NCBI RefSeq assembly: GCF_013391475.1
Contig: NZ_JACBAZ010000004.1
Span: 682,001 to 746,000, forward strand
DNA from: Oceaniferula marina
GTDB taxonomy: Bacteria > Verrucomicrobiota > Verrucomicrobiia > Verrucomicrobiales > Akkermansiaceae
Direction: 5' to 3'
Length of the DNA stretch: 64,000 nt
In this document: positions 21,680 to 56,196 of the stretch, piece after piece
How positions within the stretch are numbered: the first letter of the stretch is position 1
Layout: every line of letters begins with the position of its first letter
Made by a program: the position numbers and the translations under genes
The notes under the pieces: model-generated
The model's input: the letters and a program-made list of their open reading frames with translations, nothing else
Database searches by the model: none
What the model was told of the DNA's origin: nothing

Positions 21680-21718
21680 GTACCGATGGACTCTTCAAAA
21701 GAAACCAAGTAAACCAAT

Positions 21719-28401: not shown

Positions 28402-28402
28402 A

Positions 28403-29938
28403 TCAAGGATGGCTATAATCTAACTTAACTCGGTAAAAAACGGCACGTTGTTCTCCGCTGGGCTCAAGGTATTCCACACGCTCCCAAGTAGAATCAATCG
28501 ATTGAGCGGAAGAGACGGGTAACTCAACGGGCGTCCAGCCCTGCATGTCGACACTCTTCCATAAAGAGTAACCAAGACCATTCCGTGTAGCGTTCTTCCT
28601 GCGAACAAAAACAATACCGGTATCGGAAGTCATCTGATCATAAACACCGGAAGGAAGTCCCAAATGAGCAGCCCCCATGGCAGCATAGGGAAGAGCATGA
28701 TCACTCGACGGATGCAAGCCAAAGGCATAGGCACTCAAGTTTGTCACCCCATCACCATTGGCATCCCCGGACTCAGGGTGCTCACGGGAGTCCAAACCAT
28801 AATCATCCATCCAGAATGCATAGCTACCGGCAGCGAGCCCTTCATGATAGATAAAGGGTTTGCCATGCTGTGAGGCCACAACCAAATCAGTCATCTGGTC
28901 ATCATTCCAATCCGTCAACAAGGAATGCGTCGGACCATCCACCGAGAGCATGAGTTTGCGGTGCGGTTCCAATCGACCATCCCCAGTGGATTTCATCCAC
29001 TCAAACGAATCGCCGGCAAAGGAACGCAAGAGGGCATCGGCATAGCCGTCACCATCACAATCAACCAAGGCCTCGAGCTCGAATCCAACACATGAACCCG
29101 ACTGATGTACAGGCTCGGAAAATTGTCCTGCCTGATCACAGCTTAGCACGCTGATGTTGCCAGTCATGGAAGAAACTCCGAGCAGTTCGTCCCCACCGCC
29201 GTCAATATCACCCAGTAAAAAACGACTCCACCCTCGCCCGCACGTTTGGTTCAGCACCCATTGCCCTGCTCCCTGGTTTTTCCACACACTCACCCTACCG
29301 GGTTGCACATCCAATACCAACAGCTCTGGAAGTCCGTCTTGATCCAGATCCCTCACTTCTAACTGAACGGGAGCAGAGTCCAGCACACCGATCACCTGCT
29401 TCTCTCCAAAACCTCCCGATGCAAGACGAGGCATCCAAAACAACTCCCTGTCATGATCCGTCACACCCACCAAATCTTCGCGAAAATCACCATCCAGATC
29501 ATACGCAGACAAAGAAACCACCGCATCCAAGCCCGATTGAATGACACCGCGGGAGTCAAAGCCTCCCGCCCCATTATTATAAAACACTTGAAGGTTCCGC
29601 TCCCATCGGGATGCCACCACGATGTCGTGATCCCCATCCCCGTCAGCATCTGTCACACACAAGGAAGAGGCACCAGCAACATCATCCGCAATCATGGAGC
29701 AGGTTCCACCATTGAAAAGATCCACCCAGCCAAGCGTATCTCCGGAAGAACTCGTAAACACGGCATCGGGATTTGTATCCGCATTGATCAAGCCTCTACA
29801 AATGGCGGTCACAAGCATATCACCACCAAGTCCGTCCACTGCACGAGCTTCAAGGGGAACTTCACGGTCCAAACCAAAGGGCCCGGCAGTCAAGCCAAGG
29901 GTCGACACCATCAAGACACCAAACAATTGCAGATTCAT
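28403..29938 (-). CDS. Exported VCBS/FG-GAP repeat beta-propeller protein
   Basis: The protein has 511 residues with a signal peptide (LFGVLMVSTLGLTAG). Repeated calcium-loop units such as DADGDGDHDIVVASRWERN, DLDGDFREDLVGV, DLDQDGLPELLVLD, DCDGDGYADALL and DWNDDQMTDLVVAS define FG-GAP/VCBS blades over about residues 60-370. The C-terminus (LGYSLWKSVDMQGW ... AVFYRVKLDYS) is the beta module seen in other exported proteins here. No catalytic motif; carbohydrate or partner binding is possible. It lies 4 bases after the FecR-LamG gene and one base before the fused sulfatase. Confidence 0.85.
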   Translation of the reverse strand: MNLQLFGVLMVSTLGLTAGPFGLDREVPLEARAVDGLGGDMLVTAICRGLINADTNPDAVFTSSSGDTLGWVDLFNGGTCSMIADDVAGASSLCVTDADGDGDHDIVVASRWERNLQVFYNNGAGGFDSRGVIQSGLDAVVSLSAYDLDGDFREDLVGVTDHDRELFWMPRLASGGFGEKQVIGVLDSAPVQLEVRDLDQDGLPELLVLDVQPGRVSVWKNQGAGQWVLNQTCGRGWSRFLLGDIDGGGDELLGVSSMTGNISVLSCDQAGQFSEPVHQSGSCVGFELEALVDCDGDGYADALLRSFAGDSFEWMKSTGDGRLEPHRKLMLSVDGPTHSLLTDWNDDQMTDLVVASQHGKPFIYHEGLAAGSYAFWMDDYGLDSREHPESGDANGDGVTNLSAYAFGLHPSSDHALPYAAMGAAHLGLPSGVYDQMTSDTGIVFVRRKNATRNGLGYSLWKSVDMQGWTPVELPVSSAQSIDSTWERVEYLEPSGEQRAVFYRVKLDYSHP

Positions 29939-29942
29939 GGCA

Positions 29943-31463
29943 TTACTTCTCGGATCCTTCTTGGTACAGGCTCTGCACAGCAGCTGCAGGCAGCACTCCC
30001 TGATAGACTTTCAACTCATCGATCGTTCCTTGGAAATTATAACCAATCACACAAGAAGCTGACTTTTCATCGTCCAACTCCGTGAGCACGATATTCTCTT
30101 TGTAGGCACTGACAGCTTCGGGCACACCATCCACATAGAGTTTGATCGATTCAGGAGTTCCTTCTCCCGATCCATCATACACTGAAACCACATGGTGCCA
30201 TTCACCATCCCGTAAATCCGTTGAGCCAATCACATAGCCATAACCAAATTCAGTTCGTATGGCACCTCTCACTCCTCCTTCTTTTTCACGTTCCGGATTC
30301 AAGGTCATCCGCCATTTGGCCCCATCTTCAAAGTGTTCCCCCCAACCAATAATCGCTCCGACAGGTTGATGCTTGGGACTCTTAATCCAACAAGCAATCG
30401 TACGAGGGCGATCCCCGTCAATCCCTGACCAATTGGTTCTGAGCCCGCCATTATCTGCTGCAAACGCCACAGCGCGCCCTCTTCTTCCCGGAACCTGAAC
30501 AACGCTCGAACGGGTCGGAACCGATTCAATGGAACTCGCTATCACCTCGGTCCCCGAGGTCATCCTTGGATGATCCAAATCCACATCCATTGACCAATGC
30601 AAATAGGGAAGACCTTTCGGTAACGAGGTAAGAAACTCACCCTTGGACAAAGGGACATGACTGAAGTTTCCAGTAAAGTGAACCTCACGCGCCATACCCG
30701 CAGACAACTGCTCCGTGCGCCGGATCCCCTTGCGCGACAATCCTTTCAGCGTTGTCACTTCGACTCTTCCGTCGAGAACATGCACCTGATCATAACGGCT
30801 GTCCTGACCGTGGGAAACAACCCCAAACTCAGTCCCCAAATCAATCGCCCGAACTTGTGGCGTCTCCACCGTAAAGCCCGTGGCCTCAGGGGGAACTTTG
30901 AACCAGGCTTTCCCCCGGTGTAATGCAAGCTCGGAGGCATCGACCATGGTCAACTCCGCTGGAGCCTGAACAATCGACTTCACTCCGGAAGACAAGCTAA
31001 GTTCTATCGTCCCCTGTGAGAGCTTCAGCGAAGATCCTGGAACCAAGGCATTCGCACCAGAGTCCACATCTGCTCCTTCCGCATGACTGATCGTAAATTC
31101 CGAGTAGGGCGCAACATGGATGCTCGCCAAAACCTCCGGCTCGGGAGCCATCACCATACGCATCATCACAGCCACCGCGACCAGCACGGCTGCCGCCGCC
31201 AAGCAGGCCCGGAATACTCCGGCCTTGCGCTGCTTTTTAAGATAGAGGTCAATTGGCACGACGGCTTCACCAGCGGCCACACCACCATGCTCAGACTCCA
31301 CTTCTAACATATTGTGCAGTTCCAACAGCTTGAGGTAGCGCTTTCTTGCTTCTTCATTCTGGAGTAAAACGTCCTGCAACTGTTGATATTCTTCATCTGT
31401 GATCGTTTCATCACACAAGGCATAGATCAATCGGTCCAGCTCCTTTGTATTATAAGCACTCAT
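29943..31463 (-). CDS. FecR-LamG membrane protein, probable anti-sigma factor
   Basis: The protein has 506 residues. The N-terminal about 80 residues are cytoplasmic and helical (ELDRLIYALCDETITDEEYQ), a membrane helix spans about 84-105 (ACLAAAAVLVAVAVMM), a FecR-like domain about 115-255 (SQGTIELSLSSGVKSIVQAP, FTVETPQVRAIDLGTEFGV, VHVLDGRVEV) and a LamG/concanavalin-like domain about 285-500 (TIACWIKSP, GEWHHVVSVYDGS, IDELKVYQGVL). Its ATGA start overlaps the ECF sigma stop, which supports a sigma/anti-sigma pair. The periplasmic LamG domain could bind a glycan signal; that part is inference. Confidence 0.87.
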   Translation of the reverse strand: MSAYNTKELDRLIYALCDETITDEEYQQLQDVLLQNEEARKRYLKLLELHNMLEVESEHGGVAAGEAVVPIDLYLKKQRKAGVFRACLAAAAVLVAVAVMMRMVMAPEPEVLASIHVAPYSEFTISHAEGADVDSGANALVPGSSLKLSQGTIELSLSSGVKSIVQAPAELTMVDASELALHRGKAWFKVPPEATGFTVETPQVRAIDLGTEFGVVSHGQDSRYDQVHVLDGRVEVTTLKGLSRKGIRRTEQLSAGMAREVHFTGNFSHVPLSKGEFLTSLPKGLPYLHWSMDVDLDHPRMTSGTEVIASSIESVPTRSSVVQVPGRRGRAVAFAADNGGLRTNWSGIDGDRPRTIACWIKSPKHQPVGAIIGWGEHFEDGAKWRMTLNPEREKEGGVRGAIRTEFGYGYVIGSTDLRDGEWHHVVSVYDGSGEGTPESIKLYVDGVPEAVSAYKENIVLTELDDEKSASCVIGYNFQGTIDELKVYQGVLPAAAVQSLYQEGSEK

Positions 31464-32011
31464 ACCTGCACCTCCCCCTGTTTCATTTTCCCATCAATAC
31501 AATCGCGCAGAACTGTCCGTAAACGATTCAGAGTTACCCGCAGACTTCCTTCGGACCGGCCATCACGTCGCGCAAAGTCAACCAAGGTTTCCAGCTTTCC
31601 GTAACGAGAATCGATCAATGCCCTATCTCTGCTTTTCAACCCCCGCAAGCATTGCTCCAAAGCCCTATGTTGCTGGTCCAGCAACTCATCACTCCAGTCG
31701 TGGGGAGTCTGCTCAATCAGTTCAATCAATCGATCATCAAAGACCAGGCGATGGTCCCGTTTCATTTTTTTGCGATGCTCAAAAGAACGGTACCGGGCAA
31801 CCGTAAATGCCCAGGCTTTAAAATTGCTTCCCCTCTTAAAATCTCCACGTTTTTCCCACAACACCAGGTTGGTGTTTTGCAACACATCCCGGACATCCGA
31901 CGCATTGGGAATCAATGAACGAATATAACCACGCAACATCAGCTGATGATCTGTCAACAAGGCAACAAATTCAGCCAATTCCGGTGCGTCATGTTTGGAT
32001 CGCTTACTCAT
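31460..32011 (-). CDS. ECF sigma-70 factor (Rhodopirellula/Verrucomicrobium type)
   Basis: The protein has 183 residues. Region 2 shows DVLQNTNLVLWEKRGDF, FKAWAFTVARYRSFEHRKK; region 4 shows LKSRDRALIDSRYGKLETL then DGRSEGSLRVTLNRLRTVL. The sequence NTNLVLWEK is characteristic of the sigma group expanded in Verrucomicrobia and Planctomycetes. It directs RNA polymerase to a small regulon, probably including its own operon. It overlaps the FecR-LamG gene by 4 bases. Start ATG at 32011. Confidence 0.93.
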   Translation of the reverse strand: MSKRSKHDAPELAEFVALLTDHQLMLRGYIRSLIPNASDVRDVLQNTNLVLWEKRGDFKRGSNFKAWAFTVARYRSFEHRKKMKRDHRLVFDDRLIELIEQTPHDWSDELLDQQHRALEQCLRGLKSRDRALIDSRYGKLETLVDFARRDGRSEGSLRVTLNRLRTVLRDCIDGKMKQGEVQV

Positions 32012-32078
32012 ACTGAGCTATCTACCCGTGAACTATACCCCTCCGACGGTTCCAATCAACCCCCATCGCAGGGAACAT

Positions 32079-32112
32079 GGTATGCTGGGAAAAATATCTT
32101 CCCCAGCATACC
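32079..32112. repeat. Strong hairpin between PEP-CTERM gene and ECF sigma operon
   Basis: GGTATGCTGGG and CCCAGCATACC form a perfect 11-bp stem with a 12-base A/T-rich loop. On the minus strand it lies 12-45 bases after the PEP-CTERM stop but no T run follows, so it may be an mRNA stabilising or partial termination structure. Confidence 0.7.
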
Positions 32113-32123
32113 TGTGAATCGAC

Positions 32124-32801
32124 TTACTTCCTACGGCGAAGAATCATGGCCATGCCACCAAGCCCAAGCAGGGCCGCAGCTGAAGGTTCAGGAACAGCTG
32201 TAGCAGTCAAGATCGACCCACTTCCGCCGTCTGAGACCAGAGTCACATTCACTCCGATTTCAGCCGCCTGGCCACCGACAGTGATCTTTCCGAGGTGCTC
32301 CGATGTCGCGTCTCCGACCGATTCAGCCAGGAAATTAATCACTCCACCTGCAGCTAGATCAACCGAGGCTCCATTTGGCAAAGGATCATTTCCTCCACGC
32401 AGGGTCAAGGCACTGGTTCCGTCAATGTCCACAGTCAAATTGGCCCCGGCAAACTGGGTATTATATAATGACCCGTTGGTCAGAATAAGTGCTCCAGCAC
32501 CGTTGGTTCCATTGATACTTGCTGTCCCGATCGATGACGCATTCAAAGTCAAGGAGGTAGCAATGTCGCCCAGCACAAGAGCTCCGATATTGGTCAGCGA
32601 CGTCGAGGAAATAAAGTAATCGTCCACGGCCAAGGCTGTACCAGGGTCAATTGGGCCCGTTGCCGGGGTGCCCCCATCATCCGTCCAGTTAGCTTCTGCG
32701 AAAAACGAACTTCCGTCGCCTCCGCCCGTCCAAGTTGTGGCAGCGGAAAGCGGAAGCGCCAAGGCCGCCATCATCATGGTGATATGCGTTGTTTTTGTCA
32801 T
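32124..32801 (-). CDS. PEP-CTERM exported protein with beta-domain shared with a sulfatase
   Basis: The protein has 225 residues: signal peptide (MMMAALALPLSAA), a beta-domain of about 175 residues and a PEP-CTERM tail (VPEPSAAALLGLGGMAMILR plus basic end). WTGGGDGSSFFAEANW, LTLRGGNDPLPNG and HLGKITVGGQAAEIGVNVTL align with WTGAGDNISLFQEANW, LTLRGAGSPLTG and HLAQITVDGQPAASGVNMSL in the fused sulfatase at 26026-28401. The domain has no recognised enzyme motif and is probably a binding or scaffold unit. It precedes the ECF sigma operon in the same direction. Confidence 0.88.
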   Translation of the reverse strand: MTKTTHITMMMAALALPLSAATTWTGGGDGSSFFAEANWTDDGGTPATGPIDPGTALAVDDYFISSTSLTNIGALVLGDIATSLTLNASSIGTASINGTNGAGALILTNGSLYNTQFAGANLTVDIDGTSALTLRGGNDPLPNGASVDLAAGGVINFLAESVGDATSEHLGKITVGGQAAEIGVNVTLVSDGGSGSILTATAVPEPSAAALLGLGGMAMILRRRK

Positions 32802-32960
32802 ATAATTCTGTGTTTATGGTTGGTGGAGAGGACTCGTCATACTCACGCCATCAACGCGCTCGCTGGACAAAGCCATACTCCGATACCATACACAGGAACT
32901 TTACTCCCCGAATGTTAACACAAAATTTCACACTAAATCCTGATCAATTGAATCCTCCGC

Positions 32961-34436: not shown

Positions 34437-34561
34437 ATCGTGCTCATCACTATGAAGCCCCCAACTCCAATGACCAGCCATTTCGCATTTCACTTTGATC
34501 AACTTTTTTATGGAAAAATCGATCATTCAGATCCTGTGTGCTATACATCGAAGCAAGCCGT

Positions 34562-35089
34562 ATGCCTTCTACCATCCATCCCGAACAACAGTTCATCCAA
34601 CTCATCACCGAGCACCAATCCGAACTGGCTGCCTATATCCGGTCCATCATGCCCACGGCTCCCGGAAAAAAGGACGTTCTCCAAGAAACCAATATCGTGC
34701 TTTGGGAAAAACGCAACGAACTCAGAGACCTCTCAGGCTTCACCCCCTGGGCATACCGCATCGCCTATTTCCAAACGCTCGCCCACCTCAAAAAGCGTAA
34801 GCGTCAAAAAACGGTTTATCTCGAACCCGATGTCCTCGACCAAATCGCTACCGAACATTCATTCATCGGCAGCCAGGAGGAAGGCATACGGGCAGCAGAC
34901 GCATTAAACCATTGTCTGACCAAACTCACCCCCGATGATTATCAACTCGTCACCTTCCATTACCAACAACATGGGGGACTCAAAGAATATGCCCAACAAA
35001 TCAAAAGCTCGCTGGGCCGGGTAAAACACGCCCTGATCCGCATCCGTGGCAACCTCAGAACCTGCATCGAACACCAACTCGATGCCTAA
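34562..35089 (+). CDS. ECF sigma-70 factor (Rhodopirellula/Verrucomicrobium type), second copy
   Basis: The protein has 175 residues from the ATG at 34562 (MPSTIHPEQQFIQLITEHQS). Region 2: KKDVLQETNIVLWEKRNEL, WAYRIAYFQTLAHLKKRKR. Region 4: CLTKLTPDDYQLVTFHYQQH, SLGRVKHALIRIRGNLRTCI. It is a paralogue of the sigma at 31460-32011, with the same LQxTNxVLWEK signature. It stands 8 bases before its FecR-LamG partner. Confidence 0.93.
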   Translation: MPSTIHPEQQFIQLITEHQSELAAYIRSIMPTAPGKKDVLQETNIVLWEKRNELRDLSGFTPWAYRIAYFQTLAHLKKRKRQKTVYLEPDVLDQIATEHSFIGSQEEGIRAADALNHCLTKLTPDDYQLVTFHYQQHGGLKEYAQQIKSSLGRVKHALIRIRGNLRTCIEHQLDA

Positions 35090-35097
35090 AGAACATC

Positions 35098-36777
35098 ATG
35101 GATCAACAAAACACCATCCCCCCGACTCACCGAGAGCTTATCCAAAGCTTGATTGACGGCACCCTCAGCCCGATTGAAAGCCAACGCATCAATCAACTCC
35201 TTCGCGATGACGTCGTGCTACGCGAATTTTATATCCGCCAAATCCGCACGGACGAACTGCTCGCAGCACACTTCGAACTTCCGAATAGCCAAGTGGTTCT
35301 CAAAAGGCCGGAACCTCAAATATCCAAGAAAAAACATCTCACGGTTGTCACCATGGCCGTTGCCTTGGGCATGGCTGCAGCCATCGCCTTGATGCTGGTA
35401 TTTCGAGCCCCCGAATCAACCACAGCACAGGACGACCACTCACTGTATTCTGAATTCATCCCAGCCCCCGACCGCACCCCCGTCGCTATGGTGTCCGGAA
35501 CCAACAACGTCAACTGGGCCGCATCTTCAGGTCAAGTGCGTCCCGGCCATTGGCTCTCGGCCGGAAAAATCGACCTCAAGGAGGGCATCCTCGAGCTAAG
35601 CTACGACACCGGCACCCAGGTGCTCATCAAAGCTCCAGCTGTCTATTACATCGAAGCGGAAAGTAAAGGCTACCTCGAAAAAGGATCCATCAAAGCCCAC
35701 AGCTCCCAGACTCTCGCGAACTTTGAAGTAGAAACCCCCAACAGCCAACTCATCGATCTGGGAACCACCTTCGGTGTCACCGTGCTCAGTGCCCTCAGGA
35801 CCGAAGTCCATGTGATCGAAGGACTCGTCAAAGCCAAATCCCTCATAGATCCGGACACGGAATGGAAAATGCTCCTCAAAGGTAAAGCCCTGCGCATCAA
35901 GAGCACAGAAGACTTTAATACGGACTATGATCGCTTTCCGGCCGACACCAGCCTTTATGATTGGGCTCCTCCCGAACGAGCCAAGCGCCCGCAAAGCATC
36001 CACTACCATCATTGGTCATTCGATCAACTCAACGGCTCCCAACTTCAAGACAGCGGACAACATCCAGACTCACCCTCATTTCCAGCCCACACTGTCGACA
36101 TCTCCGAATCTACCACCTCTCATCAGTGGCTGACCCAGGGACGTTTTGGCAAGGCCCTCCATCTTGACGGCAACCAACGTTTTCTTCGCACCGATTTTCC
36201 TGGCATCGAAGGTAACGCATCCCGAACCGTCGCCTTCTGGATTCGACTCGGCAAAAATCAACCGAGAGGTGACGCCACCCCTGGAATCGTCTCGTGGGGA
36301 AAAAACAAATCCCGTGGGGAAAAATGGCAAATCCGCACGGAGTCGCCACTTCTCAAAGACAACCAGCAAGTCATCCGCACAGAATGCGCATGGGGTCACA
36401 TGATGGGACAAACCAACTTACACGACGGCCAATGGCATCACGTAGCCAGCGTGTTTATGTCCGCTCCCAATGCCGATATCGCCACCCACGTCAAACACTA
36501 CGTCGACGGCAAACTCGAAACCCGTGGCAGTATCATCTCCCGCCGAGTTAATACAGCGGTCGCAAAAGACGAACACTCTAACTTCCCCCTCAGCATTGGA
36601 CTTTCAATGGATACCGGCTTTAGCCCCAGCTACAACAAACTTATAGAACGCCACAAAAAACAACAGTTAAACATCGAAACCCTGAATGGCGATGTCGATG
36701 AACTCTACATCTTTGACGCGGCCCTGACACCTTCCGAAATCCTCCAACTCATGCAAAAAAACCGTCCACCCGAATAA
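35098..36777 (+). CDS. FecR-LamG membrane protein, probable anti-sigma factor, second copy
   Basis: The protein has 559 residues: cytoplasmic N-terminus (RELIQSLIDGTLSPIESQRI), membrane helix 81-102 (TMAVALGMAAAIALMLVF), FecR-like domain about 155-250 (KEGILELSYDTGTQVLIKAP, FEVETPNSQLIDLGTTFGV, VHVIEGLVKA) and LamG about 305-550 (RTVAFWIRLGKNQ, DGQWHHVASVF, VDELYIFDAAL). The same design as the protein at 29943-31463, with the TxF/PxxLIDLGTxFGV FecR core conserved. It follows its ECF sigma gene and is closed by a terminator, so the PEP-CTERM and sulfatase genes beyond have separate promoters. Confidence 0.87.
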   Translation: MDQQNTIPPTHRELIQSLIDGTLSPIESQRINQLLRDDVVLREFYIRQIRTDELLAAHFELPNSQVVLKRPEPQISKKKHLTVVTMAVALGMAAAIALMLVFRAPESTTAQDDHSLYSEFIPAPDRTPVAMVSGTNNVNWAASSGQVRPGHWLSAGKIDLKEGILELSYDTGTQVLIKAPAVYYIEAESKGYLEKGSIKAHSSQTLANFEVETPNSQLIDLGTTFGVTVLSALRTEVHVIEGLVKAKSLIDPDTEWKMLLKGKALRIKSTEDFNTDYDRFPADTSLYDWAPPERAKRPQSIHYHHWSFDQLNGSQLQDSGQHPDSPSFPAHTVDISESTTSHQWLTQGRFGKALHLDGNQRFLRTDFPGIEGNASRTVAFWIRLGKNQPRGDATPGIVSWGKNKSRGEKWQIRTESPLLKDNQQVIRTECAWGHMMGQTNLHDGQWHHVASVFMSAPNADIATHVKHYVDGKLETRGSIISRRVNTAVAKDEHSNFPLSIGLSMDTGFSPSYNKLIERHKKQQLNIETLNGDVDELYIFDAALTPSEILQLMQKNRPPE

Positions 36778-36837: not shown

Positions 36838-36955
36838 TTTGCCCCTAAAAAAAAACTTTTTTCGTTTTTTCCGACCGTTTGCCATCACGGGGATATGTAA
36901 CTGTGATATTTGACTCTAGATTTTGTCAAAACGCATCATCTCTACAAAACCAATC

Positions 36956-37684
36956 ATGAAATTCAAGACACCCATCATCACACTCACCAGTGTAGCGGCG
37001 CTCACAATCTCGTCACAGGCAGCCACCATCTTCTCTGAAGATTTCACCGGCGATTCCGCTACGAATCTTCAAGGAACAACCACAACTGAAGGAGGACTCA
37101 CTTGGAATGCCGATGCTCTTTTCAAAGCCAATGGCTCCTACAATGGAGCAGGCAATGCAGATAAATCCGGTTATATCAACCTCGGCGCGGGACCCACGAT
37201 CAACACCACCTACACTTTAACCACCAGCATGACCACCGTTGGCGACCTGCAATGGTTCTTTGGTTTGGCCGACAGCGCGGCAGACACCAGCTTGCGCGTT
37301 CAAGACGGCAATGTGGACAACGCCGTGCTACTGATGTACCGCGGTGTTGGGTCCAGCGATGGTGTGCGACTCGATTTTGTCGACAGCAAGTCTCAAAATG
37401 CCAGTGTCATCGCACAAAGCAACGGTCACCCGGCCAACACGCTCTCCATGGTGGTCACCAGCAACAACCTGACCGACGCCAGTATCGAAATGTTCAAAGA
37501 CGGAGCCTCTCTCGGCACAGTCAACCGCGACATCACTGGTTATCAGTATTTCGTTCTTGGTGCTGAAGCAGGGTCTGGCTCGGGCCAAATCAACTCGATC
37601 TCCCTGACCGCAGTGCCTGAGCCCAGCAGTACAGCCCTACTCGGACTCAGCGGACTCAGCCTGATCCTTCGCCGCAAAAAATAA
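36956..37684 (+). CDS. PEP-CTERM exported protein
   Basis: The ATG at 36956 gives 242 residues with a signal peptide (LTSVAALTISSQAA). The body (IFSEDFTGDSATNLQG ... VGDLQWFFGLADSAADTSL ... DASIEMFKDGASLG) is a jelly-roll-like beta-sandwich, similar in flavour to LamG or concanavalin-like folds. The C-terminus is VPEPSSTALLGLSGLSLILR with a basic end. Probably a surface or matrix protein cut by exosortase. Located between the second ECF pair and the LamG-pseudosulfatase gene. Confidence 0.87.
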   Translation: MKFKTPIITLTSVAALTISSQAATIFSEDFTGDSATNLQGTTTTEGGLTWNADALFKANGSYNGAGNADKSGYINLGAGPTINTTYTLTTSMTTVGDLQWFFGLADSAADTSLRVQDGNVDNAVLLMYRGVGSSDGVRLDFVDSKSQNASVIAQSNGHPANTLSMVVTSNNLTDASIEMFKDGASLGTVNRDITGYQYFVLGAEAGSGSGQINSISLTAVPEPSSTALLGLSGLSLILRRKK

Positions 37685-37826: not shown

Positions 37827-40364
37827 ATGCTTCGCTCCATCCCTATCACATCGCTGTGGTTTCAAATGGTCAGCCTCTCCCTCGCGTTGACCGTCTCCGC
37901 CATTGCCCAACCGGTCGCATATTGGTCATTCGATGGTGACACAACAGCAGCGCGTCTAGCTGAATCACTCGGACAAACGGCTCTCGATGCCAGCGAAACC
38001 AACGGCAGCTCGTCATGGAACACCCGTAGCGGATTCGGCAACGTCCTCGCCAATGGCTCCGGCACCGCTTACCTGTCTGTTGCCCAGCACATCGCCATCA
38101 CCCCGGGAAGCGGCAACTTCTCCATTTCCCTCTGGGCATACAGGACATCCGATGCCAACAGCACCAAGGGACTACTGGATGCCCTCGATAGCGGTGCAAC
38201 CACCGGCTACCAGCTATTCTATCAAACGGATAACACCATCCGTATTCGTATCGACGACAACAATGGCAACCATGTTCTGGTCGACACCCAGTCGGCACAC
38301 TACCAACAAAACATCTGGCAAAATATCATCGTCACCGTCGACCGCAGCAAGCAAATAGCACGCATCTATGTCAACGGCAGCGAAGCCACCACCGCGGGCG
38401 GCGTTGCCATCAGCGCCCTCACCGGATCCATCAACCTCAATCAAAACCTATGGATCGGAACCCTCAATGGCACGGCAGCTGCCCGAGGTCGTCTCGACGA
38501 TATCGGACTATTTAACTACGCCTTGAGCACCAGCGAGATTGCTGCGATCAACGTCGGCAGCGGAGTCCCCTTGTCAGAGATAGATACCTCCCCGGTCGCA
38601 AGCGTCATTGCCACCCCTACCAGTGGCTCCATCCTACGCATTGGTGACACGGTAACGCTAAGTACAAATGAGGCTGCTGACGCCATTTACTACACATTGG
38701 ACGGTAGCGTTCCAGATAACAGCGCCAAGCTCTATACAGCCCCATTCACGGTACCAGCGAACGCCACGCTACAAGCCATTGCCTATAAAAATAACAGCCC
38801 GGGTGTGGTCACCTCGGCATTCTACACCTGTATACCAAACAGCCCACCCAATATCCTGATCATCATGGCAGACGACATCGGCTATGGCGATCTCTCATGT
38901 TACGGTGCACCAACAGTCCACACCCCGCACCTTGATGCCCTCGCGCGAAAAGGATCACGCTTCACTCAATTTACCACCACTGGACCAGGCGATCTCGCCA
39001 ACCAGTATGCACTGCTCACCGGCCGCCTGGCCCGACGTGGCAACCTGCCCGCCGACATCCCCCCTGGAAGTGCAAATAGTATCGATTACCGCGAGTGGAC
39101 TCTCGCCAAGGCCTTACGAAAAAAAGGATACCAAACCGCCATGATCGGAGAATGGAATCTTGGGGACAGCGCTGACGCAGGGCCAAATAACCAAGGCTTT
39201 CAATTATTCTACGGGCTACCCTACTCTGCATCCTTCATCCCTACGCCGCCACTCGTTGAAAACGAAACAACGCTCGAAGCCGCCCACCATTCCAACCTTC
39301 TCTTGGATCAGCTCAGTCAACGAGCCTCCTCATGGATCTCCGCCCAAGGAGAGGCGCCCTTTTTTCTCGTCTTCTCACCACCCTCCCTACCGGCAACAGG
39401 AGGCTCATTGCTCGGAAACCACGGAAATCGGATGGACGCCCTTGATCGCTCCATCGGTGACCTGCTTGACACCCTGGAACAAACGGGAAAAACCAACGAC
39501 ACACTGGTAGTCTTTCTCTCGGACGAAGGACCGGACCGCACCTATACCTCTCCATCCTACGGATCGGCTGGCATTTTTCGCGATGGAAAATCCACCACCT
39601 GGGAAGGAGGCGTGCGCACCCCGGCGATCAGTCGATGGCCCGGCATCATCCCAGCTGGAACAAGCAACCAGGCCGTGCTTTGGTTGCCCGACCTCTACAC
39701 CAGCATCACCGCCATTGCGGACGCCCATGTTCCGGACGACCGGCCCTACGATGGCACCGCACGCGCCGATGTCCTTCTATCAAGCCGCACCCGACCAGAT
39801 GCCGAGACCACTTTGTTCCTGCACCGCCACGACGGCACCGGTTACCAACTCCAAGCCATCCGCCAAGGTGCATGGAAATACCATGCCACATACCAAAACT
39901 CAGCAACAGACAACAACTTCTCGGAATCCGCGCCGCTGCTGTTCCAAATCGAGCAAAACCCGACCGAGCACATCAACCGTAGCAGCACCCACACCAGTAA
40001 ACTCGTCGAACTTCAATCGGCGGCCTCAACCCATCTTGCCACATTCGCATCTCCACTCCCCCAACTCCCGATCACTCAGCCGGGGTTTCTGAGCCCTCCC
40101 GCTCTATCTATCCTCACTTCCGAAAACAATAAAACCTCCTTCGCAGCCACCCTGCACCGGCCGGTCACATCCACCAACGACGAATATGCCATCCAGTATT
40201 CCCATGATCTGAGCGAGTGGTTCTCCCTGGCCATCGATCCATACATCCTAACAATCGATCCGCAAACGAACCATTCAGAGATCATTGAACTACGTATTCC
40301 CTCAGGCGATCCCAGCTTCTCCAACAACCGTGTCTTCTTCAGAATCATCAACACCCGACCATGA
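37827..40364 (+). CDS. LamG-sulfatase fold fusion with lost catalytic residues (pseudosulfatase)
   Basis: The protein has 845 residues: signal peptide 1-27, LamG domain about 30-240 (PVAYWSFDGDTTA, GRLDDIGLFNYALS), a chitobiase-like beta-sandwich about 258-335 (ADAIYYTLDGSVPDNSAKLY), sulfatase fold 340-735 and a C-terminal beta module (YAIQYSHDLSEWF, VFFRI). The fold and first aspartates (D349, D350) remain, but the formylglycine motif C-S-A-S-R of the neighbour is D-L-A-N-Q (389-393), GKWHLG is GEWNLG, the PH-L-P histidine is absent and SDNG is SDEG. Sulfate ester cleavage by the known mechanism is impossible. It may bind sulfated glycan. ATGA overlap couples it to the active sulfatase that follows. 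Confidence 0.9.
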   Translation: MLRSIPITSLWFQMVSLSLALTVSAIAQPVAYWSFDGDTTAARLAESLGQTALDASETNGSSSWNTRSGFGNVLANGSGTAYLSVAQHIAITPGSGNFSISLWAYRTSDANSTKGLLDALDSGATTGYQLFYQTDNTIRIRIDDNNGNHVLVDTQSAHYQQNIWQNIIVTVDRSKQIARIYVNGSEATTAGGVAISALTGSINLNQNLWIGTLNGTAAARGRLDDIGLFNYALSTSEIAAINVGSGVPLSEIDTSPVASVIATPTSGSILRIGDTVTLSTNEAADAIYYTLDGSVPDNSAKLYTAPFTVPANATLQAIAYKNNSPGVVTSAFYTCIPNSPPNILIIMADDIGYGDLSCYGAPTVHTPHLDALARKGSRFTQFTTTGPGDLANQYALLTGRLARRGNLPADIPPGSANSIDYREWTLAKALRKKGYQTAMIGEWNLGDSADAGPNNQGFQLFYGLPYSASFIPTPPLVENETTLEAAHHSNLLLDQLSQRASSWISAQGEAPFFLVFSPPSLPATGGSLLGNHGNRMDALDRSIGDLLDTLEQTGKTNDTLVVFLSDEGPDRTYTSPSYGSAGIFRDGKSTTWEGGVRTPAISRWPGIIPAGTSNQAVLWLPDLYTSITAIADAHVPDDRPYDGTARADVLLSSRTRPDAETTLFLHRHDGTGYQLQAIRQGAWKYHATYQNSATDNNFSESAPLLFQIEQNPTEHINRSSTHTSKLVELQSAASTHLATFASPLPQLPITQPGFLSPPALSILTSENNKTSFAATLHRPVTSTNDEYAIQYSHDLSEWFSLAIDPYILTIDPQTNHSEIIELRIPSGDPSFSNNRVFFRIINTRP

Positions 40365-41797
40365 AACACCTAATTTCCACAGCTTTCGCCCTGCTCGCGT
40401 GCTTCAACCTCCACGCCCGCCCTGCCACGGAAAAGCCAAACATCATCATCGTCTTTGTCGATGACTCCGGGTACGCCGACTACGCGCACACAGGCAACCC
40501 CACAATCCATACACCAAACATTACAAGCATGGTGCACGAAGGGTTGAACTTCCCACAGTTCTACTGTGCCTCTCCCGCCTGCTCGGCCTCCCGCTACGCT
40601 CTACTCACCGGCCGTAACCCGGCGCGCTCTGGATTCAGGTGGGTCCTCCCCCCCACAGAAAGCAAGTATCTGCACCCCAACGAAACAACCATCGCAGAAG
40701 GACTAAAAAACCAGGGGTATGCAACCGCCATGTTTGGCAAGTGGCATCTCGGAACACCAAACACTGGCAACGCCTATACCCCGAACGCTTTACCTCTGGC
40801 TCATGGCTTTGAGATCTTTGAAGGCACAACGGTCTCCCACGATTATGCCGACAGCCACCTCATCATGGGCCCCTCCAGTGATAACAATCCAACCACGGGC
40901 TACGCATCCATCACCACCAAGGTTCCGTCCAAACTGGAGATCATGCAAGGGCTCACCAAGCGCTACACCGACCGCGCCATCCAATTTATCAGCACCCATA
41001 AAGATGACCCGTTTTTCATCTACCTGGCCCCCAACATGCCCCATCTCCCCGTCCATTCTTCCGAAGAATTTCAAGGAACCTCTCTGCGAGGTCCTCTGGG
41101 CGATTGTATCGAGGAAATCGATAACTCCGTCGGACGTATCCGCCAAGCCCTTGCTGATGCCGGGGTCACAGAGAACACTCTGATCATTTACACTTCCGAT
41201 AACGGCCCGTGGATTCGCTTTGAAAACACCACAACCACCTACCCCAATGGCCAGGGGGAGGCTCGTCTCAACGTCGGCTCAGCACTACCATTCCGCGATG
41301 GTAAAGGTTCCACTTGGGAGGGTGGTGTTCGCGTTCCCGGCGTCTTTTGCTGGCCTGGAACCATCCCTGCCAGCAGTGTTGAAAAAACACCGGCCAGCAC
41401 CATGGATCTGCTACCCACCATTTTCTCTCTCGCCGGAGAGCCCGTCCCCGGTGACCGCATCCTCGATGGCCGTGATATCCGCCCCTTGCTTAACCCGGAA
41501 AACTTTACAGGAACGGTTCCCGACTTCAACTTTGTCTACACCGGAGCCTCGAGCAACGGCATCTACGCCGCCCGGAAAGGAGCATGGAAGATGCACATCC
41601 GCCTCTACTCCCAAACGGGAAACAACTACGGCTTTTCGGCTTCATCAAGCAACCCGCTGCTATTCAACCTCGAACAGGACCCAGGTGAACGATTTGATCT
41701 TTCAGCTCAACAATCAGAGCAGTTGCCCGCCTTGCAAACCATCATCAACGATTTTCAGTCGAGCCTGAATACAGAGGGAACCTTTTGGTCCCCCTGA
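40361..41797 (+). CDS. Secreted sulfatase translationally coupled to the pseudosulfatase
   Basis: The protein has 478 residues with a signal peptide (TAFALLACFNLHA). VDDSGYAD (D34, D35), formylglycine site C74-S-A-S-R78 with YALLTG, GKWHLGTP, NMPHLPVH, TSDNGPW and KGSTWEGGVRVPG are all present, so activity is expected. LLFNLEQDPGERFDL marks the C-terminal subdomain. It begins inside the stop of the LamG-pseudosulfatase gene (ATGA), which suggests equal amounts and perhaps a complex. Convergent with the esterase gene, 28 bases apart. Confidence 0.92.
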   Translation: MKHLISTAFALLACFNLHARPATEKPNIIIVFVDDSGYADYAHTGNPTIHTPNITSMVHEGLNFPQFYCASPACSASRYALLTGRNPARSGFRWVLPPTESKYLHPNETTIAEGLKNQGYATAMFGKWHLGTPNTGNAYTPNALPLAHGFEIFEGTTVSHDYADSHLIMGPSSDNNPTTGYASITTKVPSKLEIMQGLTKRYTDRAIQFISTHKDDPFFIYLAPNMPHLPVHSSEEFQGTSLRGPLGDCIEEIDNSVGRIRQALADAGVTENTLIIYTSDNGPWIRFENTTTTYPNGQGEARLNVGSALPFRDGKGSTWEGGVRVPGVFCWPGTIPASSVEKTPASTMDLLPTIFSLAGEPVPGDRILDGRDIRPLLNPENFTGTVPDFNFVYTGASSNGIYAARKGAWKMHIRLYSQTGNNYGFSASSSNPLLFNLEQDPGERFDLSAQQSEQLPALQTIINDFQSSLNTEGTFWSP

Positions 41798-41825: not shown

Positions 41826-43202
41826 TCATTTCGCCTGAAAACAGGGCACAGGCAAGCCCTCTTGATTCATCAGATTGGTGACAGGCGTGTTCGACCAGGC
41901 GTAACGGACTGACTTTGGATTTTTCACACCGTCGGACTCAAGCGTCACTTGATTGCTACCTGAAATGCGCGCCTTGGCCGGAACAAATTTGCCGTCGCTT
42001 CCAGCAACTTCAAACGCCATGGGTGCCTTACCATCTCGCGTTGCCAATCCACTGGCCACATCCTTGAAGGTCAGCACCACCTTCCCCCGTTTGACGACAT
42101 GGGAAACATAGGTCGGGCTGTAAGCCACCACATCCTTACCGTAGGTATCCTTCAAAGCAAGCAAGGCCAAGCGTTGCCCCACTTCCTTCTTTTTCTTCGG
42201 GTGAATATCCTTCGGGTTTCCAATATCGATGGTCACCGCCATCCCCGTATGCGGGATGCTGGCATTCGACTCCGACTGTGCCTGCCAAATCACAGGCAAC
42301 ACCTCCGGGGAATCCTTCGGGTAGCCGAATGGAGCCAACTGCACAAAGTAAAATGGCATTTCTTTCCCCCAGATTTCACGCCAACCTGCGACCAGCGCCC
42401 GCTTTTTGTGATGATACAGGGCTCCGTCCTTACGGTTCGATTCCCCCTGGTACCAGATTGCCCCTTTGATGCGCAATGGTGCCAAGCCGTGCACCATACC
42501 ATTATAGAGTTTGCTATAATCTCCCTTCTTTCCCTTCAACTCGGGGATGGCATCTCTGCCGCTTGGCGTCGTCCAAGGCTCAATTCTTGTCCCACCCCAC
42601 GAAGATGCGATTAAACCAATAGGAACATTTTTTAATTCTTGCTGAAGATGAACCCCAAAGAAATATCCAACGGAAGAAAATCCCTTCCGAGGCTTATCGC
42701 CCAGATTGGAAATCGTTTCTGGGCTGCAAACCTTCCAACCTGAAGCCTTTGCCACATCCGGAAGAGGCTTTCCTGATTTTACTTTATTCACATTCAGCAA
42801 TCGTATCTTCGGATGACTGGCAGCTTGAATCGCCTGTTTCGGGTTTTCACTCAGGCCAATGCCCCACTCCATGTTTGACTGACCGGAACACAACCAAACA
42901 TCTCCCATGAGAATATCCTTGAGCACAATCTCATTCTTCCCCTTCACCTTCATCGTCAACGCATCCCCCAAACCTCGCTTGGGTAGCGTCACTTTCCAGT
43001 TTCCTTCGGCATCCGCATTGGTTTGCTTCGAAGTTCCTGCCAAGGTCACGGATACCTTTTCCCCTGCATCAGCCCAGCCCCACACTGTGATGGGTTCACC
43101 ACGTTGCAAAACCATGTGATCCGTCAATACCTTCGGTAAGGTCACATCCGCAGCGCATGGCCATGCACCACCCAACATCATCATTAAGATCGTCTTTTTC
43201 AT
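41826..43202 (-). CDS. Secreted SGNH esterase, sialate O-acetylesterase-like
   Basis: Probably removes acetyl groups from glycans. The ATG at 43202 gives 458 residues with a leader (MKKTILMMMLGGAWPCAADV); the frame runs on to 43292 without a better start. The N-terminal beta-domain has LPKVLTDHMVLQRGEPITVW and GEKVSVTLAG. The catalytic serine is in WLCSGQSNMEWGIG (block I), followed by LIASSWGGTRIEPW and IWYQGESNRKD. The C-terminal part with DIHPKKKKEVGQRLA gives the D-x-H dyad. This order matches the SASA/sialate O-acetylesterase family. Divergent from the lyase gene across 410 bases. Confidence 0.88.
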   Translation of the reverse strand: MKKTILMMMLGGAWPCAADVTLPKVLTDHMVLQRGEPITVWGWADAGEKVSVTLAGTSKQTNADAEGNWKVTLPKRGLGDALTMKVKGKNEIVLKDILMGDVWLCSGQSNMEWGIGLSENPKQAIQAASHPKIRLLNVNKVKSGKPLPDVAKASGWKVCSPETISNLGDKPRKGFSSVGYFFGVHLQQELKNVPIGLIASSWGGTRIEPWTTPSGRDAIPELKGKKGDYSKLYNGMVHGLAPLRIKGAIWYQGESNRKDGALYHHKKRALVAGWREIWGKEMPFYFVQLAPFGYPKDSPEVLPVIWQAQSESNASIPHTGMAVTIDIGNPKDIHPKKKKEVGQRLALLALKDTYGKDVVAYSPTYVSHVVKRGKVVLTFKDVASGLATRDGKAPMAFEVAGSDGKFVPAKARISGSNQVTLESDGVKNPKSVRYAWSNTPVTNLMNQEGLPVPCFQAK

Positions 43203-43612
43203 CGCTATTTTGAATTTTCTGGAGGACCCAGCCACCAGCACAATCGATACGTGCTCGCGATCAAGCATATTACAGAGAATGTTACCACTCAACCCTCTAG
43301 GGAACGGATCATCGCAGGGCGAATTCAGTAGGAGCTAACAGCCTGCGGCGCTGGCGGGATTGTCAGGATTTTAAATTTTCGAAGATCAAGCTTTGTCCAA
43401 AACCTATCACTACCCTCTAAAAAAAATCCTATAAATCCCCTTCAATCATGTGAATCCTGTCAGCGCCGCAGGCATCACCGAGATGATCTCCCTAATGTAG
43501 GAGCCCTGCGGATCATCGCATCAAAGATGCTCCAGATTTGAATATTTCCATGGTCACTGATAAGAATGCGAATACCTCGCCGGTATATTGAGAATCCATC
43601 AACCTTCCAACC
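43203..43612. other. 410-base intergenic region between divergent esterase and lyase genes
   Basis: This region holds a nested palindromic element at 43305-43520 (separate entry). Outside it there is about 100 bases on the esterase side and 90 bases on the lyase side where promoters should lie. No further coding frame or RNA gene is supported. Confidence 0.6.
43305..43520. repeat. Nested palindromic repeat bounded by 12-bp direct repeats
   Basis: CGGATCATCGCA occurs at 43305-43316 and again at 43509-43520. GTAGGAGC follows the first copy at 43328 and precedes the second at 43498. Inside, GCCTGCGGCGCTG (43341-43353) is matched by CAGCGCCGCAGGC (43461-43473), and GGGATT-GTC-AGGATTT is matched by AAATCCT-ATA-AATCCC. 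No gene is present. It could be a MITE-like or REP-type element. Confidence 0.7.
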
Positions 43613-45397
43613 ATGCGCATTTCACTCTTCCGTATTCTTCTCTGCCTTGCATTCATCACGACAAGTTCATGGGCAGAGGTCCCAGACCACCCGCGCCTGC
43701 TCTTTTCCAAATCCGATGAAACGGCCGTCAAACAAGGTATTCATTCCGACCCCTTGGCCAAGCAAGTCTACACCGAGATCCTACGTCGCGCCGACCACAC
43801 CCTCAACGCGCCTACCTGCAGATACCACATCCCGGACGGCAAACGCCTGCTCGGTGAGAGCCGCCGTGCATTAAGCAACATCCTCCACTGCGCAATGGCC
43901 TGGCGACTCAGCGGTGAGAAAAAATACTTCAACCGCACCATCAAGGAGCTCGATGCCGCCTGTGCACTCAAAGACTGGAACCCCAAACACTTCCTCGATA
44001 CCGCCGAAATGTCGACCGCGGTCGCCATCGGTTACGACTGGCTCTACCACGAACTCAATGAAACCCAACGCAACACCTACGCATCGGCACTGCGAAACAA
44101 AGGGCTGGAACCCGCACGCAATGGATTCACAGGTAAACGTGCCTGGTGGTCGCATCCGCGAAACAACTGGGGGCAGGTGTGCGCCACCGGCCTCCTGATG
44201 GCAGAACGTGCACTGGAACGATCAGGCGACCACATTCATCCCGCCCGAAAAGCCGCCAGTCAATCGCTTGAACAGTGTGCGACATTCTATCAACCCGATG
44301 GAGCCTACCCCGAAGGGCCAGCCTACTGGCACTATGGATCAAACTACCACGTCATTGGACTCGCCCTTTTAGCCACGGAACATCGGCAACTTCGATCCCC
44401 AACACCCGCCACCTTTGCCCGCTCCCCGCTGTTCACCGAGCACCTAACCGGACCTACTGGCAAGGTCTTCAACTTTGCCGATGCCGGAGTGTCCACCAGC
44501 CGGGTCAGCCCCGCCCAATCATGGATGACTAACACCTTCGACCAGCCGGCCACCTGCAAATTCATCCGATCCAGGATCGCCCAAGACATCAGCGACCAAC
44601 GCAAGCATTCCACCAAAGGACCTGAACGGTTTTTTCCGCTGCACCTACTCTGGCTGCCCAACGAACATCCGGACAAGCAGGCAACTCTCGCCACGGACTC
44701 CCGCTGGAACGGCAGCCAACCCATCGCAACCTTCCGCAGTCAATGGCATGACCCCGATGCTTTGTTTGTCGCCATCAAAGGTGGCTACCCGGGAGCCAGT
44801 CACGGGCAAATGGATGTAGGGACCTTTATCCTCGAATCCCAAGGCGTGCGCTGGGTCGAAGACCTCGGCAGCGACAATTACAACATGCCCGGGTACTTCG
44901 GATCCAAACGGTGGAGTTATTTCAGGCTCACGAATAAGAGCCACAGCACACTGGTCATTAACCAACAATTACAAAACCCCAAATCCAAACCATGCCTCAT
45001 CACAGCATTTCAAAGCACTCCTGAAAAAGGAAGTGCCAGCATCGACCTTACGCAGGCATACACCCCTCAGGCAAAGCACATCGTCCGCAGCTGCACACTG
45101 GACCGTAGCCGTCAACAGGTCACGATTGAAGACGCCATTACGCAACCAACGGGTCCCGTTCGCTGGGCAATCGTCACCCGAGCAGAAGTCAATATCGAGA
45201 ACAACACCGCCATACTCAAACAATCCGGCAAAGAGCTCAAAATCATCCGTAACGACAAACATGGAGGTGTCTGGCAAGTGCTTGATGCCAAGCCTTCTCT
45301 CAAAATCGAAAACCAAAACCAAGGCGTCCGCATCCTCTGTTTTACCGCTCCGGCATCCCCCCAACTCACGCTCAGTGTCAGTTTCAGCCCACATTAA
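43613..45397 (+). CDS. Secreted heparinase II/III-like polysaccharide lyase
   Basis: The protein has 594 residues with a signal peptide (ILLCLAFITTSSWA). The N-terminal half is an alpha/alpha toroid (HPRLLFSKSDETAVK, TAEMSTAVAIGYDWLYHEL, NNWGQVCATGLLMAERALE, PEGPAYWHYGSNYHVIGLAL). The C-terminal half is the heparinase II/III beta-sandwich (FVAIKGGYPGASHGQMDVG, GVRWVEDLGSDNYNMPGYF, KRWSYFRLTNKSHSTLVIN). These proteins cleave uronate-containing polysaccharide by beta-elimination. The Tyr/His-rich YWHYGSNYH stretch fits the catalytic region. The exact family and substrate cannot be fixed; sulfatase neighbours suggest a sulfated uronan. Confidence 0.88.
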   Translation: MRISLFRILLCLAFITTSSWAEVPDHPRLLFSKSDETAVKQGIHSDPLAKQVYTEILRRADHTLNAPTCRYHIPDGKRLLGESRRALSNILHCAMAWRLSGEKKYFNRTIKELDAACALKDWNPKHFLDTAEMSTAVAIGYDWLYHELNETQRNTYASALRNKGLEPARNGFTGKRAWWSHPRNNWGQVCATGLLMAERALERSGDHIHPARKAASQSLEQCATFYQPDGAYPEGPAYWHYGSNYHVIGLALLATEHRQLRSPTPATFARSPLFTEHLTGPTGKVFNFADAGVSTSRVSPAQSWMTNTFDQPATCKFIRSRIAQDISDQRKHSTKGPERFFPLHLLWLPNEHPDKQATLATDSRWNGSQPIATFRSQWHDPDALFVAIKGGYPGASHGQMDVGTFILESQGVRWVEDLGSDNYNMPGYFGSKRWSYFRLTNKSHSTLVINQQLQNPKSKPCLITAFQSTPEKGSASIDLTQAYTPQAKHIVRSCTLDRSRQQVTIEDAITQPTGPVRWAIVTRAEVNIENNTAILKQSGKELKIIRNDKHGGVWQVLDAKPSLKIENQNQGVRILCFTAPASPQLTLSVSFSPH

Positions 45398-55186: not shown

Positions 55187-55267
55187 CTGGGAGCTTGAGA
55201 GCGCATGGAGAGCTCAATCACCGACCACATCCGTCCTTCTTACTGGGAAAATGCGAAACCAAAAAAT

Positions 55268-55990
55268 ATGAAAAAAACAATCATTAGCAGATCTAGAGCT
55301 CTGGTCATTTTAGCCAGTGCCGTCATCATTCCCCAAACTCAGGCAGCTTTGATCATCACCAACAGCGACATGGAGATCAACACCCTGACAGGTTCCGGTG
55401 ATTTTAAAACGACAGCTCCGACCGATTGGATACAAGCAACCGGCGTAAGTGGCACAGTAGGTGTCATTGGCGATACCCGAACTTCGGTCACGGATGATAC
55501 CACTGCCCCAGAGCACTTTGCTTGGCTACACCTCCAAGGCATCAACAATGAGGCGGGTCAGTCCATCGGTGATATCACATCTAACCTTGGACAGACCATC
55601 CGGATCACTTACGATCTAACGCGCCGAACCAATGAAGGAACGAACTGGAACCACCGCGTCCGTCTATATGCAGGAGACGGCACTGGATATACTGCCGCCA
55701 GCGACACCGCCGACCCGAATGCCGATTTGTCAGACGCTTTTCTGGCTGAGGTGACTGGGGCAAACTCTGGTGCGCCAGCCAATACCTTTGAATCTAAAAC
55801 TGTGGACGTAACGCTTCCATCTACCTACACTGGCTCGCTCGATCAACTCTACCTATCTTTTAAAAACCGTGCCGGGACCACCGCACAACTACATTTCGAC
55901 GATGTGACAGTAACCGTCATTCCTGAGCCCTCATCATCCGCCTTACTTGGCCTCGGTGGACTTGCCCTGATCCTGCGTCGACGCAAGTAA
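55268..55990 (+). CDS. PEP-CTERM exported protein, cassette 1
   Basis: The ATG at 55268 gives 240 residues (MKKTIISRSRALVILASAVI leader). The mature start LIITNSDMEINTLTGSGDF and the internal FAWLHLQGINNEAGQSIGDI, TYDLTRRTNEGTNWNHRVRL and LSFKNRAGTTAQLHFDDVTV look like a carbohydrate-binding jelly roll (galactose-binding-like). The tail is IPEPSSSALLGLGGLALILR and basic residues. Paralogue of the next gene, sharing promoter element, layout and terminator type. Confidence 0.87.
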   Translation: MKKTIISRSRALVILASAVIIPQTQAALIITNSDMEINTLTGSGDFKTTAPTDWIQATGVSGTVGVIGDTRTSVTDDTTAPEHFAWLHLQGINNEAGQSIGDITSNLGQTIRITYDLTRRTNEGTNWNHRVRLYAGDGTGYTAASDTADPNADLSDAFLAEVTGANSGAPANTFESKTVDVTLPSTYTGSLDQLYLSFKNRAGTTAQLHFDDVTVTVIPEPSSSALLGLGGLALILRRRK

Positions 55991-56145: not shown

Positions 56146-56196
56146 ACATCATTTAACTCATAGCATTGAGTTCGCAAAAAAAACAAATCTTTGCTT

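Follow-up and report, generated by a model that had tools for sequence, protein, structure and literature searches.

In a 64,000-nucleotide stretch of the Oceaniferula marina genome (contig NZ_JACBAZ010000004.1, positions 682,001 to 746,000; hereafter the window, whose first letter is position 1), two adjoining genes on the forward strand encode a pseudosulfatase, P0001 (37827..40364, +, 845 amino acids), and an intact sulfatase, P0002 (40361..41797, +, 478 amino acids). Judged from its sequence, the first gene is a long-standing pseudoenzyme, a sulfatase-fold protein lacking what catalysis needs. Seven such genes were found, and in all seven cases an intact sulfatase of the P0002 subfamily lies directly downstream on the same strand. 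We tentatively favour the reading that the dead protein is a non-catalytic modular subunit, which would dock or place the neighbouring sulfatase.

The window pseudosulfatase starts with a probable signal peptide (judged by eye), followed by a LamG domain (residues 79-239, 38061..38543, +; Pfam Laminin_G_3, E 7.7e-19), an Fn3_assoc/CHB_HEX_C_1 domain (residues 273-329, 38643..38813, +; Pfam) and the dead sulfatase-fold domain (residues 341-630, 38847..39716, +; Pfam Sulfatase, E 9.3e-40); the C-terminal part, about 100 residues long, matches nothing in Pfam. These assignments bear out the sulfatase fold, LamG and chitobiase-like domains that a first-pass annotation of this DNA had proposed; both of its reading frames were also correct. 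Alignment of the seven members showed that the sulfatase-fold domain of the window copy lacks the Cys, the Arg, the Lys of GKWH and the His of PH. In the window copy, D389 stands at the position of the formylglycine (FGly) Cys and Q393 at that of the Arg, GEWNLG replaces GKWHLG, PPSLP has no His and SDEG takes the place of SDNG, all as the annotation had read them and as seen again in the translation. Its statement that every catalytic motif had been lost holds for the Cys, Arg, GKWH Lys and PH His, but is too strong for this copy, which still has the metal pair D349/D350 as well as the SDEG Asp and the DGKST Lys.

The downstream protein (Pfam Sulfatase, E 1e-59) retains C74-S-A-S-R, which had been described before and was confirmed in translation, together with GKWHLG, MPHLP, SDNG and DGKGSTWEGG, and has no Pfam domain outside the sulfatase group. 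All 12 aligned partners, seven paired and five unpaired, keep the catalytic Cys, Arg, Lys, His, His, Asp, Asn and Lys (the G156 sequence in this alignment is cut by the contig end). The AlphaFold model of the partner was fair (67.7) and matched GALNS and arylsulfatase A; that of the pseudosulfatase, made from the seven sequences, was poor (mean predicted local distance difference test score, pLDDT, 44.4; predicted template modelling score, pTM, 0.28). The genome contains eight matches to the formylglycine-generating enzyme (FGE) family (PF03781), two of them probably belonging to one gene. Not all PF03781 proteins are FGE.

Two of the seven pseudosulfatase genes are in the O. marina genome and five in other genomes, distributed over three families of one order. 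The second O. marina copy (C1, on another contig) shows 52% identity to the window copy and is again followed by an intact sulfatase. In a family sample of 145 genomes, three further genomes carried a copy, at 54-61% identity, below which identity drops to 34-39% among the matches listed. An order sample of 386 genomes added G156 (45%) and G145 (41%), in two other families. The clade is thus rare, being present in 4 of the 145 and 6 of the 386 genomes, counts that are not additive as the samples overlap. Across members, identity to the window copy was 40-58% for the pseudosulfatase and 51-69% for the partner. With a profile built on the seven (A3), members scored 652-859 bits, the best non-member in a class sample (384 genomes) 307 bits, non-members in two separately searched families (3 and 74 genomes) at most 295 bits, and ordinary sulfatases, when the fetched loci were scored, at most 337 bits. 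In a contig scan, identity was at most 41% in the best 80 of 91 matching stretches, from which near records may be left out. Two further matches were rejected as pseudosulfatases for their intact motifs: G176, the weakest of the order sample, and G401, the only other one among 387 genomes sampled from the phylum. In a quick tree the seven form one clade (Shimodaira-Hasegawa-like approximate likelihood ratio test, SH-aLRT, 100); all of them match the Pfam sulfatase domain and carry the Fn3_assoc/CHB_HEX_C_1 domain, and Pfam found LamG in four.

The catalytic residues were compared with the members in the order window copy, G012, second O. marina copy, G009, G093, G156 and G145. The nucleophile position is occupied by D, D, D, E, D, A and D, and the Arg position, four residues after it, by Gln in 7/7; Cys or Ser at the former and Arg at the latter were each found in 0/7. 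The GKWH Lys position reads E, E, A, V, A, E and Q, and its His position N, H, H, N, H, L and L. At the PH His there are S, S, S, S, P, A and H; at the SD Asp D, A, D, D, D, N and T (Asp in 4/7); at the SDN Asn E, G, G, G, G, G and S (Asn in none); and at the late Lys K, G, K, K, K, A and A. The metal pair is DD in five members, DE in G156 and PG in G145. As a control, nucleophile and Arg were both present in 180 of 180 rows of ordinary sulfatases, a count that includes duplicates. The 194 control rows comprised 176 with Cys and Arg, 2 with Ser and Arg, 2 with R and M (misaligned) and 14 representing the seven pseudosulfatase genes; rows with a gap at the Cys column or fewer than 250 aligned residues were excluded, which removed 133 of 327 profile matches, and the loci, having been fetched for similarity, are no random sample. 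The two misaligned rows, L063 and L102, had looked like further Cys-less sulfatases, but their letters show an intact C-x-P-x-R and both were classed with the ordinary enzymes.

While the other catalytic positions vary, the segment around the lost nucleophile is kept. In the window copy this rewritten segment, TQFTTTGPGDLANQYALLTGR, spans residues 380-400 (38964..39026, +), and its part TGPGDLANQYALLTGR, residues 385-400, ranks first for conservation among the 479 windows of 16 residues compared across the seven members. The ranking depends on width: at 12 residues the window from residue 385 comes 25th of 483, the leaders being 393-404 and 378-389, which overlap 385-400, and at 20 residues the best window is 381-400. 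Invariant in all seven around this segment are T, T, G, G, Q, Y, A, L, T, G and R, giving the family a fixed signature, T-T-x-G-x-G-[DEA]-x3-Q-Y-A-x-L-T-G-R. Between the window and G012 pseudosulfatases, codon positions 1, 2 and 3 differ by 37, 23 and 63%, as would be expected under purifying selection; no ratio of nonsynonymous to synonymous rates (dN/dS) is claimed, because dS was saturated.

The first-pass annotation had suggested selection for a non-enzymatic role, with substrate presentation or an activity-modulating heterodimer as conceivable roles. Such selection is well supported: homologues with C-x-P/A-S-R, which by that annotation would have meant a recent mutation, were 0 of the six other members. 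A recent inactivating mutation was rejected because those six share the loss, and sequencing error or frame damage because the frame is open and the second O. marina copy has the same changed motif. A recent tandem duplication of the partner was also rejected, as 27 partner-type sulfatases, paired and unpaired, form one group (support 100) with the pseudosulfatases outside it; the quick tree warns of long branches meeting, so that the exact sister group is uncertain.

By its fold the protein belongs with the FGly-dependent S1 sulfatases (PF00884; arylsulfatase A, GALNS), with which it shares a full-length Sulfatase domain and the L-T-G-R turn after the nucleophile, and among solved chains a profile comparison places it nearest to steryl-sulfatase and arylsulfatase A. 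By nucleophile and Arg it is no catalytic member of the group: unlike these enzymes it has neither Cys/Ser nor Arg, its Lys/His set is broken, and it bears an extra Fn3/CHB domain and, in four of the seven members, LamG. In the parts of the SulfAtlas paper considered here (PMC5066984), the 4058 aligned S1 sequences are given as having Cys or Ser at the nucleophile, and 11 sequences lack the motif Arg, of which one, from Aspergillus niger, has Gln and nine, from Lentisphaerae/Planctomycetes, have Ile/Leu and are called possibly inactive. Loss of the Arg is common to those putatively inactive sequences and the pseudosulfatase; pairing with an active sulfatase is not described in those parts of the paper (PMC5066984). 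A search of open-licence literature, in part by title and the start of the abstract, returned no paper on this pseudosulfatase family, a result that does not prove absence. Among pseudoenzymes, a dead subunit that is paired with its active paralogue and encoded beside it is a known arrangement. The present case differs in its sulfatase fold, in its bacterial sigma/FecR cassette and in that the interaction is putative.

The pairing suggested in the first-pass annotation recurred in relatives, the two genes being adjacent in 7/7 and their trees compatible. The ATGA overlap of the two genes, also correctly reported there, was found in the window copy alone (-4 nucleotides); the other six pairs are in tandem with gaps of 9, 35, 2, 23, 148 and 50 nucleotides, measured from the likely ATG. 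Both trees hold G156 and G145 together and place the second O. marina copy, G009 and G093 in one group (support 86 and 96), to which the partner tree adds five unpaired sulfatases. The window and G012 are a supported pair in the partner tree (100), left unresolved and not contradicted in the pseudosulfatase tree. This makes the two trees compatible without proving them equal. The distance matrices of pseudosulfatases and partners correlate at 0.86, a value reached by 10 of 5040 permutations.

Sulfatases of the partner subfamily (E 1e-100 or better) occur in 37 of the 145 genomes of the family sample, against four with a pseudosulfatase. At 14 unpaired partner-type loci, in 13 genomes and once in O. 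marina itself, there was no pseudosulfatase in the fetched DNA. Eleven of these 14 fall in the group that holds the seven partners, with five of the eleven beside the G093 sequence, and the supported branches of the partner tree require the paired label to have changed at least twice. Because the pseudosulfatases form one clade, repeated loss of the pseudosulfatase would be the preferred history, with repeated pairing or transfer as possible alternatives.

In five of the seven cases the pair ends a cassette with the order extracytoplasmic function (ECF) sigma factor, FecR-like protein, PEP-CTERM protein, pseudosulfatase and sulfatase; these are the five pairs of the O. marina family. In the window, the sigma factor (34538..35089, +; start codon uncertain) is of ECF type, nearest to Sig-70_gvs1 (Pfam Sigma70_r2, E 1e-8), and matches the Rhodopirellula/Verrucomicrobium type TIGR02989 at E 3.8e-36 and 124.4 bits, just under the cut-off of 124.55. 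The next gene (35098..36777, +) encodes a FecR-like protein of anti-sigma/sensor type (Pfam FecR, E 7.2e-5; at 23.6 bits slightly short of the cut-off, 24) that ends in a LamG domain (Laminin_G_3, E 1.2e-10), and is followed by that of a PEP-CTERM protein (36923..37684, +; Pfam PEP-CTERM, E 5.5e-5; TIGR02595), the start of which is probably an ATG about 11 codons in. Homologues of the sigma factor and FecR accompany all five pairs of this family and none of the 14 unpaired partner-type sulfatases, two of which have less than 2.5 kb upstream. A PEP-CTERM-pattern gene precedes the dead sulfatase in six of seven cassettes, scoring over the curated cut-off in the window, G012, G009 and the second O. 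marina copy and below it or unlisted in G093 and G156, where in G156 the contig then ends; the pattern occurs near one of the 14 unpaired loci (L175, about 4 kb away). The pseudosulfatase of the window itself gave no match for the PEP-CTERM signal with Pfam and TIGR profiles, and the genome has one exosortase match. The sigma-factor type and the PEP-CTERM proteins would suit a member of the Verrucomicrobiota or a close relation.

Modules are shared between the dead sulfatase and its neighbours. The FecR protein carries LamG in three of the five cassettes (window, G012 and G093). The N-terminus of the G093 pseudosulfatase matches its own PEP-CTERM neighbour (38% over 242 residues, 90 bits), the extra N-terminal domain of the second O. 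marina copy matches the G009 PEP-CTERM protein (30% over 204 residues, 69 bits) and the N-terminus of the G145 pseudosulfatase matches the G012 PEP-CTERM protein (25% over 233 residues, 57 bits); bit scores are given as the database held 13 sequences. In the G093 cassette, LamG is on a separate gene (L140:10261-11454) before the PEP-CTERM gene, and the pseudosulfatase (L140:7001-9439) bears a PEP-CTERM-type ectodomain, so that modules appear, from these comparisons, to have been swapped within one operon. That a module is fused in one genome yet has its own gene in another is classically read as a sign that the proteins act together, although modules of this kind may be common in these bacteria.

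In the arrangement that we tentatively favour, the ECF sigma/FecR pair would switch the cassette on and both proteins would be exported; export is probable for the pseudosulfatase. We infer that the latter would lack activity and would dock to the live sulfatase through its sulfatase fold, while an exchangeable N-terminal module (LamG or a PEP-CTERM-type ectodomain) and the Fn3/CHB domain would bind glycan or a surface-sorted PEP-CTERM protein, holding the catalytic chain where the sulfated substrate lies. Docking or placement would explain the adjacency of all seven to one sulfatase subfamily, the accessory modules on the dead chain, the modules common with surface-sorted neighbours and the partner managing alone elsewhere; as the partner is found without it, the role of the dead protein is accessory. 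A more specific form of this proposal, which we regard as possible but doubtful, is a two-chain sulfatase in which the fold has been rebuilt as a docking and placement subunit whose exchangeable modules would serve a bare catalytic chain in trans under one ECF-sigma switch. If true, the S1 sulfatase fold would include a family of pseudoenzymes whose active partner is defined. Sulfatase genes, very numerous in this genome, are usually counted as enzymes by fold alone, and a conserved dead family tied to a live sulfatase would show that some are structural or targeting parts; the signature would provide a simple sequence rule for its recognition, and the pair would allow roles of pseudoenzymes in sulfated-glycan breakdown to be tested.

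Several observations weigh against docking or placement. The nucleophile segment is also conserved in active sulfatases, and the constancy of the rewritten segment may be partly structural. Compatible trees and correlated matrices are also expected from plain inheritance as neighbours, the partner subfamily occurs alone in many relatives, and no partner column separates the seven paired from the 11 unpaired sequences, leaving no interface signature. LamG was not found in three of the seven members, and in G145 both sigma/FecR and a separate PEP-CTERM gene are missing from the approximately 3.2 kb up to the contig end.

Glycan receptor, allosteric subunit and sensor remain, in that order, as alternatives. 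As a receptor, the protein would bind and present intact sulfated glycan through the former substrate cleft and/or LamG, with no docking. LamG in four members, Fn3/CHB in seven, and the heparinase II/III-like protein and acetylesterase encoded beside the cassette would suit such a role, which is nevertheless unlikely, given that the charges of the catalytic site are gone and drifting freely (the Lys, His and PH His columns) and that three members are without a detected LamG. Somewhat less probable is an obligate heterodimer in which the dead subunit would activate the live sulfatase or be needed for its folding. Some sulfatases form dimers, and the tandem order in 7/7, the ATGA coupling of the window copy and the compatible trees would fit; an obligatory activator is argued against by the 13 sampled genomes, and one other locus of the O. 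marina genome, in which the partner subfamily stands without a pseudosulfatase, and no columns distinguish paired from unpaired partners. We consider it improbable that the pseudosulfatase is a sensor, binding a glycan breakdown product and signalling to the FecR protein and sigma factor: the linkage to sigma/FecR in all five members of the family and the LamG of FecR in three of those cassettes point that way, but no sigma/FecR was seen beside the G145 pair, and at 26026-32017 of the window a sulfatase adjoins a sigma/FecR pair without any pseudosulfatase.

New chemistry, in which a pocket with an acidic residue and Gln would catalyse another reaction, would accord with the top conservation rank of the rewritten segment at 16 residues. 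Such chemistry, a metal-only or Asp-nucleophile enzyme included, is nevertheless highly improbable, because the acidic residue is Glu in one member and Ala in another, while G145 has lost the metal Asp pair and G156 has it altered. Decay of a paralogue without function, to which the lower identity of the pseudosulfatases than of their partners could be put down, is scarcely credible in view of seven open frames in three families, the fixed Gln and TTxGxG...QYA segment, the third-position bias and the second cassette in the same genome.

A second PEP-CTERM/ECF-sigma/FecR-LamG locus lies at 26026-32801 of the window on the reverse strand. Its last genes encode an FG-GAP repeat protein (28403-29938) and, one base further on, an intact sulfatase with an N-terminal extension (26026-28401). 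It resembles the cassette in its regulator types and in having a non-catalytic protein directly before the sulfatase, and differs in that this protein is an FG-GAP repeat protein, the sulfatase again being intact. The ends of the pseudosulfatase (40065-40361) and the FG-GAP protein (28403-28560) look similar, by eye only, both closing with F-[FY]-R-[IV], which is perhaps a common C-terminal module of exported proteins here.

Just after the cassette, 41826-45397 encodes a SASA-type carbohydrate acetylesterase (-) and a heparinase II/III-like protein (+), and judging by these genes is perhaps a locus for a sulfated, acetylated, uronate-bearing glycan. By C-terminal pattern there are five PEP-CTERM genes in the 64 kb: that of the cassette, by this pattern at 36920-37681, and four others, at 21713-22588, 32127-32813, 55199-55987 and 56170-56808. 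The O. marina genome as a whole contains at least 200 sulfatase-matching stretches, several per gene.

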